In this document: piece by piece, positions 7,670-16,341 of the stretch | Position numbering within the stretch: the stretch's first letter is position 1 | Layout of the letters: each line of letters begins with the position of its first letter | Assembly: GCF_000210715.1 (NCBI RefSeq) | Contig: NC_021038.1 | Span: 606,519 to 645,682 of the forward strand | Reading direction: 5' to 3' | Length of the DNA: 39,164 bases | Origin: Fretibacterium fastidiosum | Lineage (GTDB): Bacteria > Synergistota > Synergistia > Synergistales > Aminobacteriaceae | Program-made: the position numbers and the translations under genes | The notes under the pieces: model-generated | Seen by the model: only the letters and a program-made list of their open reading frames with translations | Told to the model about the DNA's origin: nothing | Databases searched by the model: none

Positions 7670-8716
7670 ATGGCCAAAGTCCCAAGGGTCCACTGCGACT
7701 CCTGTGGCGTCTGCCTGGTCCCCGTCCCCTGGGCGCGCGAGGGCAGCGGGTTTACTTTGCTTTTCGAGGCGTTGGTCCTCTCCCTGGCTCCTGCCATGCC
7801 CATCAAGACCCTGGCGAAGGAGCTGAACATGCACGACACACGCCTCTGGCGCGTGATCAGGCATTACACGGAACAGGCCCTCGAGCGGAGGGATCTGTCA
7901 GGGGTCCGCAATGTCGGATTCGACGAGACCGCGAGCAAGCGAGGGCACGATTACGTGTCGGTCTTCGTGGACCTGGATACGTCAAAGGTCATCTTCGCCA
8001 CAGAGGGTAAGGACTCGAGCACTTTGGGGCGATTCAAGACATTTCTCGAGAAACACGGCGGCCGAGGCGAAAACATCGAGCGGATGTGTTGTGACATGTC
8101 GCAAGCCTTCATCAAAGGGGCGCGAGAACACTTCCCGGGTGCGAAGCTGACGTTCGACAAATTTCATGTCGTGAAGGTGGTGAACGATGCAGTAGACAGC
8201 GTCCGTCGCGAGGAGCGCAAGGAGGACCCGAGCCTGGCGCACACCCGTTATCTTTGGCTGAAGAACCCTCAAACCCTGACGGAGAAGCAAAAGGCCTGGC
8301 TGGGGGAACTGAGTCTGAGGAAGCATAATCGGAAGACCGCGCGTGCCTGTCAGATGAAGCTGGGTTTCCAGGATATTTTCAGGAGATTTCGCCTTTGAGA
8401 AGAAGGGGAGCTGTTACTGAAGCGATGGTATTTCTGGGCTACGCACAGTCGTCTAAATGCGATGGTTGGAGCAGCGCGCACGATCAAGCATCATTGGGAT
8501 GGAGTCCTTCAGTGGTTTGAGTCCCGTATCAACAACGGCATTCTTGAGGGAATCAACAGTTTGATCCAAGCCTGTAAGGCGAGGGCCAGGGGCTGCAGGA
8601 GCAGGGAGAACCTCATCTCAATGATTTACCTCATCGCAGGGAAACTACAGATAGGGCTATCCCTTAAAATAGCGAGAAGCTACAAAATGAAGGAGGCGCC
8701 CTGGGGCGCCTCCTGA
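7670..8716 (+). pseudogene. ISL3-family transposase, truncated and interrupted by an in-frame TGA
   Basis: This is a DDE transposase of the ISL3 family. Visible family landmarks are VPWAREGSGFTLLFEALVLS, the first catalytic Asp in NVGFDETASKRG, the second in CCDMSQAFIKGA followed by LTFDKFHVVK, and the C-terminal block KRWYFWATHSRL, WFESRINNGILEGINSLIQ and IYLIAGKL. Two lesions are seen. The N-terminal zinc-ribbon region of about 90 residues is missing before MAKVPRVHC. A TGA at 8396-8398 interrupts the frame, which otherwise runs on unchanged to 8716. A single C-to-T change of a CGA codon would explain the TGA, and no hairpin follows it, so selenocysteine insertion is unlikely. The coding end runs into the hairpin at 8691-8714. 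It marks the right border of the acquired island. Confidence 0.85.
8691..8714 (-). terminator. Rho-independent terminator downstream of the yqeY-type gene
   Basis: A perfect 10-bp stem (AGGAGGCGCC / GGCGCCTCCT) with a four-base loop is followed on the minus strand by the T-rich run TTCATTTTG. It is placed 30 bp after the stop of the yqeY-type gene. The same hairpin lies inside the 3' end of the ISL3 transposase frame on the other strand, so the element probably landed in or next to this terminator. Confidence 0.65.
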
Positions 8717-14218: not shown

Positions 14219-15025
14219 ATGAGGAAGGACGGAGGGGCTGCTGTGGAGGACATTCGGGAGGCGGTGCGCGCGGCGTACAGCGCGGCCATCGAGGGACGGG
14301 AAGCGGGGTGCTGCACGGACCCCGACGCCGTCACGGACATGACTCAGGGCAACTACCGTGCTGCGGACCTCGCAGGGACGGGGGAAGCGGCGGAGCAGTC
14401 CTTCGGGTGCGGGGACCCCGTCCGCGCGGCGCTCCTCAAGCCGGGGGAGCGCGTGTTGGACCTGGGGTGCGGCGCAGGGCTGGATCTGATCCTGGCAGCC
14501 CGGGACGTGGGGCCGTCGGGCCATGTCTATGGCCTGGACATGACCCCCGCCATGCTGGCCCGCGCCCGAAAGAACCTCGCGAAGCTGGGCCTGAGGAACG
14601 TCACGCTCCTGAAGGGCCACATCGAGACGCTCCCGCTCTTCGATGGCGGGGTGGACGTGCTGCTCTCCAACTGCGTGATCAACCTCTCCCCGGATAAGGA
14701 CGCGGTGTTTGGCGAGGCGTTTCGGGTGCTGGCGCCCGGCGGCCGCTTCTGTGTTTCGGACGTCGTGTTGCTGCGCCCCGTTCCGGAGATGCTGCGCAGG
14801 AGCAAGACGGCCTGGAGCGGGTGAATCGCCGGTGCTCTTCCGTCGGAAGAGTATCGGCGAAAACTTGAGGTGGCAGGGTTCGTTCAGGTCAGCGTCAGGC
14901 CGACGAAACCCCATGAGATCAATGCGGATGTCGTTCGACAGGAGGCGGGAAGCCTGAGCGCGGAGGACGAGGCGGCCCTTGCGGGGCTCTCCGCCAGTGC
15001 GCTCATCACGGCGATACGGCCCTAG
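14219..15025 (+). CDS. ArsM-like SAM-dependent methyltransferase, probable selenoprotein (UGA = Sec202)
   Basis: Read through the TGA at 14822-14824, the frame encodes 268 residues resembling arsenite methyltransferase ArsM, which methylates As(III) using SAM. The SAM motif is [11 protein letters not shown] (Asp81 region). Arsenic-site thiols appear as Cys31-Cys32, Cys64 (FGCGDP), Cys152 (LSNCVINL) and the UGA at residue 202 in WSG-U-IAGALP. In the Cyanidioschyzon enzyme the As-binding cysteines are 72, 174 and 224. The last two are 50 apart, exactly as Cys152 and position 202 are here. After the UGA the frame continues as good family sequence ([13 protein letters not shown]) to TAG 15023-15025, which overlaps the stop of the convergent kinase gene in CTAG. 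A 16-bp hairpin directly follows the UGA. GTG 14243 is an alternative start with a strong GGAGGGG. If UGA acts as a stop, the protein would lose its third thiol ligand and C-terminal domain. Arsenic as substrate is inferred. Confidence 0.82.
14826..14860 (+). promoter_or_regulatory. Probable bacterial SECIS element
   Basis: Immediately after the UGA codon (14822-14824) the mRNA can form an uninterrupted 16-bp stem, T14826 to A14860. It includes two G-U pairs and has a three-base loop GUC (14842-14844). The loop begins 17 nt after the UGA and its first base is G. Both agree with the known model for bacterial SECIS elements, which lie inside the coding region and bind SelB. The hairpin also encodes conserved-looking residues ([12 protein letters not shown]), so its structure is under a double constraint. 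Confidence 0.75.
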
Positions 15026-16293
15026 CCCATCAGGGCGAACGAAACGTCGTTGACGTTGGTGCCCGTGGGACCGGTGATCACGAGGGAGTCCACGGCCTTC
15101 AGCGCAGTCCATGCGTCGTTGTCCCGCAGGACGGCCTCGACGTCCATCCCTCTGGCGCCCAGCGCTTCCGCCGTCGTCCCGTCCACGATGCCCCCGGCCG
15201 CGTCCGTGGGGCCGTCCGTGCCGTCCGACCCCACGGAGACGACCACGACGTCCCGAAGCCCCCGTATGCCGCGGCACGCCGACAGGGCCAGCTCCTGGTT
15301 GCGCCCGCCCCTGCCCTTCCCCGTCACGTGCACCACGGTCTCGCCGCCCGCGATGACGACGCAGGGCGATGCGATGGGGCGCCCGCTGGCGCGAACCTCC
15401 CGCGCGATGGCGGCCAGGAACGCGCCGGCCTCCCGCGCCGTGCAGGAGAGCGTGGAGGTCAGGAGCAGCGGCGTGTAGCCCAGGGCGGCGGCGGCCCTCC
15501 CGGCCGCCGCGCAGAGCGACGCCACGCTGCCCGCCGCTACGGCCGTGGCGTTGTCCAGCTTTTTGGGCGTTTCGCGTTTCAAGGCCTCCGTGAGGCGGGG
15601 ATGGAGCGCCAGCCCGTACTTCTCCACGACGCGCAGGGCGTCCTCCGACGTGGAGGCGTCGGGGCAGGCCGGCCCCGACGCGATGCTGTCCAGGCGGTCC
15701 CCCAGCACGTCCGACAGGGCCACCGTCAGGACGCGGGCCGGCGCGCAGAGCTTTGCGAAGCGCCCTCCCTTCACGGCAGACAGGTGCTTGCGGACCGCGT
15801 TGACCTCCACGATGTCCGCTCCGCAGGCCAAAAGCTGGCCCGTCACGTCCGCCAAGTCCTTCAGCGTCACGCCCTCCGCCGGCAGCTCGAAGAGCGCCGA
15901 CCCGCCGCCCGATACGAGGAACAGCACCGTATCCTCCGGCGACAGGCCCCTCACGCGCCTCAGGAGCGCCTCCGTCCCCCGGACCGCGTTCTCGTCCGGC
16001 ACCGGGTGACCCGCCTCAAAGGCCTTGATCCCCCGCATCTCCCCCAGCGAATGGCCGTATTTGGTGATGAGGACGCCGCCGGCCAGCCGATCCCCCAGCG
16101 CCTCCGAGGCGGCTTGCGCCATGCGCCACGCCGCCTTGCCGATGGCGGCCAGGATCACCCGTCCTCGCCCCGTCTCCCTCAGCCGGGCGGCGAGCTCTCC
16201 ACGCCCCAACGCCTCCCTCACCGCCGCTTCGGGCAGCACGGCGTCGATGGCCCGCCTCACGATCTCCAGCGCATCCTCCCGCAGCTTATCCAT
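15022..16293 (-). CDS. Glycerate 2-kinase (MOFRL-type, GckA/TtuD family)
   Basis: The product of 423 residues is a class II glycerate kinase, which phosphorylates D-glycerate to 2-phosphoglycerate for entry into glycolysis. The N-terminal DUF4147 part shows [16 protein letters not shown], the glycine-rich [12 protein letters not shown] and the [18 protein letters not shown] segment. The C-terminal MOFRL part shows [20 protein letters not shown] and [16 protein letters not shown], all hallmarks of the family. ATG 16293 gives GGAGG at nine bases; GTG 16302 would abut the Shine-Dalgarno sequence. The stop overlaps that of the convergent ArsM-like gene in CTAG. In amino-acid fermenters it may serve serine or glycerate catabolism; it is not in an operon here. 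A perfect TATAAT lies 49 bp upstream. Confidence 0.93.
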
Positions 16294-16341
16294 CCCGCGC
16301 ACCTCCCCGACGGCCTGGGACGAAGTGTCCCACGTTTCTTC

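Follow-up and report, generated by a model that had tools for sequence, protein, structure and literature searches.

The window, the whole 39,164-nucleotide stretch of Fretibacterium fastidiosum DNA analysed here, contains an arsM gene flanked upstream by a gene for a clostripain-like peptidase and downstream by a convergent glycerate-kinase-like gene on the reverse strand (15022-16302). The arsM frame runs from ATG 14219 to TAG 15023-15025 and is open apart from a single in-frame TGA (Table 1). With the TGA read as selenocysteine (Sec), the frame encodes 268 amino acids without a further stop, in agreement with the first-pass annotation of this stretch. The same annotation had the gene end in a CTAG common to both genes; the stop of the convergent gene, CTA, indeed lies at 15022-15024, and the two stops therefore share these four bases.

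The start of arsM is more likely GTG 14243 than ATG 14219, although the latter is also possible. The GTG is preferred because Synergistota relatives begin with M-x-DIREx at the matching place and because ggagggg lies ~5 nt upstream of it. The product predicted from GTG 14243 has a mass of ~27.3 kDa at full length and ~20.3 kDa if it ends at the UGA, both computed with Cys in place of Sec. The gene boundaries proposed earlier, 14219-15025 with a product of about 28 kDa, are therefore kept at the 3' end and probably need to be moved at the 5' end. Among the neighbours of the window's arsM we looked for an arsenic operon or other arsenic genes and found none, and the F. fastidiosum genome gave no match to Acr3. 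Elsewhere in the window, an ORF at 7670-8398 was judged by eye to resemble a truncated ISL3-type transposase.

Table 1. Positions of arsM and its elements in the window
Feature	Positions	Strand	Basis or remark
arsM, probable selenocysteine form	14243..15025	+	likely start GTG 14243; 260 aa; Sec194 (=202 from ATG 14219)
Cys64 codon, putative first arsenic ligand (CmArsM Cys72)	14408..14410	+	alignment to 4fr0; Cys in 10/10 Sec forms
Cys152 codon, putative second arsenic ligand (CmArsM Cys174)	14672..14674	+	alignment to 4fr0; Cys in 10/10 Sec forms
UGA codon, probably read as selenocysteine; third arsenic-ligand column	14822..14824	+	TGA in ten Synergistota species; aligns with CmArsM Cys224
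Coding region 3' of UGA (66 codons)	14825..15022	+	C-terminal similarity in Synergistota Sec relatives; dN/dS
Bacterial SECIS-like hairpin	14826..14860	+	core 14834-14852 conserved: 8 bp, G-first 3-nt loop; fold z -6.3

Family assignment and arsenic-ligand columns

Read through the UGA, the arsM product matches the arsenite methyltransferase model NF008823 with 286.9 bits (cut-off 263), over positions 5-268 of the 272 in the profile. Its similarity to the Synergistota Sec relatives continues past the UGA to the C-terminus. The full-length match and this similarity, together with the dN/dS values given below, bear out the earlier remark that the sequence after the TGA is family-like. Residues 64, 152 and 202 align on Cys72, Cys174 and Cys224 of Cyanidioschyzon merolae ArsM (4fr0), the established As(III) ligands of that enzyme. 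The three arsenic-binding columns thus hold Cys64, Cys152 and, in place of the third Cys, the putative Sec. The 50-residue spacing between Cys152 and position 202, on which the first-pass annotation had relied, is correct and corresponds in the alignment to that of Cys174 and Cys224. Both cysteines are present in all ten Sec forms described below; gaps at column 64 in some of the Cys rows result from the trimming of long frames and not from loss of the residue. The As(III) ligands of the human homologue are among the subjects of PMC3877260.

The F. fastidiosum protein resembles the Cys-type ArsM enzymes (Cyanidioschyzon merolae 4fr0/4kw7; 5evj) in its methyltransferase domain and in the three arsenic-ligand columns. 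It differs from them in its third ligand, which is Cys224 there and predicted to be Sec here, and in its length (260 amino acids versus ~380). An ArsM-like methyltransferase domain with Sec (UxxG) is also found in the NCBIfam fusion selenoproteins NF041537 (AhpD), NF041536 (DUF2284) and NF047649 (UXPK-star), but these carry an additional Sec domain. The arsM product scored 147-169 bits against the three fusion models, far under their cut-offs of 460-575, and its assignment to a fusion selenoprotein was rejected.

The in-frame UGA in relatives and the selenocysteine machinery

Relatives were collected from a scan of public genomes and of two genome sets, 83 from the family and 188 from the phylum. 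Ten Synergistota species, F. fastidiosum and nine others, have TGA at codon 202 and no other stop. Its presence in nine other species argues that the TGA at this codon is not due to chance. The third-ligand column could be read in 43 other relatives, from Synergistota, Chloroflexi, Actinomycetota, Gemmatimonadota and other groups, one more being too short at this column; 42 of them have Cys there and one has Thr. With the exception of this Thr, the column is as the first-pass annotation had expected. The UGA of F. fastidiosum arsM is therefore in frame and aligned with Cys, and homology is conserved on both sides of it, as in a bacterial selenoprotein. The ten Sec forms constitute one clade (ultrafast bootstrap 100, SH-aLRT 100), and the Sec/Cys label changes once on the ArsM tree, compared to a mean of 9.4 for shuffled labels. 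The median dN/dS is 0.11 before the UGA and 0.26 after it, or 0.23 when the SECIS codons are left out. With dN/dS at about 0.24, purifying selection acts on the 3' part of arsM, which hence is not a dead tail.

Two of the relatives deserve separate mention. Genome G013 encodes ArsM in both forms, Sec (L041) and Cys (L055), a natural pair for comparison. In L047 (genome G016, match 1501-2277), a Cys-type arsM has one TAA inside, perhaps because the gene is broken or the assembly faulty.

The F. fastidiosum genome, 2.73 Mb in one contig, encodes the selenocysteine machinery that the first-pass annotation had proposed to look for. It contains a tRNA-Sec with the anticodon UCA (selC, 73 bits), selA (545 bits), an adjoining selB (327 bits, or 354 bits with a C-terminal part in the same frame) and selD (341 bits). 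The selD gene (L035 1501-2436; G000:C1:2473247-2474182) has its own in-frame TGA, corresponding to the known selenoprotein form of selenophosphate synthetase. Matches to selA were also found in the tested genomes with Cys forms, with a fragment only in G016. Given these selA matches, the distribution of the Sec and Cys forms of ArsM is not accounted for by a loss of the Sec machinery.

The hairpin 3' of the UGA

Bacterial SECIS elements lie just 3' of the UGA and have G among the first loop bases. In F. fastidiosum arsM, arms at 14826-14841 and 14845-14860 pair over 16 bp around a GUC loop (14842-14844), with a predicted fold of -30.2 kcal/mol against a mean of -13.6 for shuffled sequences (z -6.3). 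One base lies between the UGA and the hairpin, and 17 nt lie between the UGA and the loop. The 16 bp, the loop and its distance had been described correctly in the first-pass annotation; the stem is conserved in its inner 8 bp only. A hairpin that follows the UGA directly and whose short loop opens with G is consistent with a SECIS, an assignment made from these features. At the gathering threshold no Rfam family matched in the window, a result that does not count against a SECIS.

Across the ten Sec genes, the inner 8 bp is conserved as a block, with all eight pairs kept in eight genes and seven of eight in L040 and L060. The loop has three bases with G first (GUC, GUU or GGC) and lies 17 nt past the UGA in every one of them. 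The outer 8 bp is particular to the F. fastidiosum genome, so the full length of the hairpin here is partly incidental, and the 16-bp hairpin was rejected as one conserved unit. The core falls in the codons GCT-CTT-CCG in 10/10 Sec genes, and GCT and CTT are otherwise uncommon within the same genes (4/42 and 2/33, respectively, in F. fastidiosum arsM). The Cys forms mostly have GCC or GCG and CTG or CTC at these codons; their core pairing has a median of ~4/8, and the hairpin is not kept as a block. Changes in the core are one-sided, indicating sequence constraint and not covariation. Two near-identical Cys-type arsM genes, L068 and L071, have 7/8 core pairs with a CGC loop; this may be the remnant or the beginning of a SECIS, or a chance resemblance.

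Decoding, substrate and relation to known selenoproteins

The family, the ligand columns, the conservation of the UGA and of the SECIS core, and the Sec machinery are established at the level of sequence. We consider it very likely that the gene encodes an ArsM of the PRK11873 type in which Sec takes the place of Cys as the third arsenic ligand. SelB and tRNA-Sec would decode the UGA through the hairpin just 3' of the codon. The first-pass annotation had put Sec at this ligand. The alignment of column 202 with Cys224, the Cys in this column of relatives, the TGA and the SECIS-like hairpin in ten species and the presence of the sel genes support that interpretation, and Sec most likely replaces the third ligand in the F. 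fastidiosum enzyme. In the proposed mechanism, Sec would be inserted at the UGA, and As(III) would be held by Cys64, Cys152 and Sec202 in an As(S,S,Se) site. The bound As(III) would then be methylated from SAM to MAs(III), perhaps further. Selenium may alter As(III) or selenium-thiol chemistry, as the first-pass annotation had supposed. It may let the site hold arsenic more strongly, or make the residue more reactive as a nucleophile or as a redox partner.

A UGA is a stop by default, and for some ArsM enzymes two cysteines are said to suffice. The gene could accordingly encode a truncated enzyme of ~193 amino acids that lacks the third ligand, its remainder decaying. This is highly improbable in view of the TGA that ten species share at this codon, the purifying selection on the 3' part, the conserved hairpin and rare codons past the UGA, and the Sec machinery in the genome. 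A sequencing error is also conceivable, as the TGA is a single base away from the Cys codons TGC and TGT. Its probability is close to nil, however, because nine further assemblies, including the single-contig genomes G136 and G137, have the same TGA. Both explanations were rejected on the conservation of the TGA in ten species and the selection after it. Missing sel genes, a natural end of homologues at this position and a TGC or TGT error were all looked for, and none was found.

The evidence on the substrate points in two directions. The window's arsM has no arsenic neighbours and the genome has no Acr3, which argues against arsenic; Sec might then be inserted into an enzyme that acts mainly on a metalloid other than arsenite, such as a species of selenium or antimony. 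On the other hand, all three arsenic-ligand columns are kept and the match to NF008823 is full. In addition, the gene directly upstream of arsM in the Sec genome locus L012 (804-1151) encodes a regulator of the ArsR/SmtB type with the motif ELCVCD, which favours arsenic. A substrate other than arsenite is decidedly unlikely, and arsenic is the presumptive substrate. An As(S,S,Se) site might also have given the Sec-ArsM enzymes of this Synergistota clade an activity of their own, such as faster anoxic methylation or selenium methylation, but this is rather doubtful; in one genome at least (G013), such an activity would exist separately from a Cys paralogue.

A Sec-containing ArsM is itself not new. 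An ocean survey names ArsM with PRK11873 as a selenoprotein family (PMC2398784), and a later study counted 41 ArsM selenoproteins in 39 organisms and called Synergistetes selenoprotein-rich (Peng 2016; PMC5029168). A 2026 review lists the selenoprotein arsenite S-adenosylmethyltransferase with NF008823, a UxxG motif, WP_011987699.1 and the reference Fomenko 2007 (PMC13188914). The novelty implied by the first-pass annotation is unsupported, since ArsM selenoproteins were already catalogued in 2007-2016; the F. fastidiosum gene is genuine but mostly ordinary. It shares the family model with the catalogued enzyme, and its motif, UIAG, fits UxxG. As the review gives the motif only, we infer that Sec occupies the same column in both. 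No difference from the catalogued Sec-ArsM is established, and the Synergistota branch has one common conserved hairpin. Our analysis adds this branch, a well-supported single clade, to the known ArsM selenoproteins. Natural Cys relatives are available for comparison, so the contribution of selenium at an arsenic ligand is directly testable. Annotation that ends at the UGA shortens genes of this kind. A threonine/serine dehydratase-like gene is absent beside the window's arsM copy; such a gene adjoins the Sec arsM of several related genomes, in L011 (1926-2909), L056 (398-1429), L059 (2425-3417) and L060 (2225-3298).
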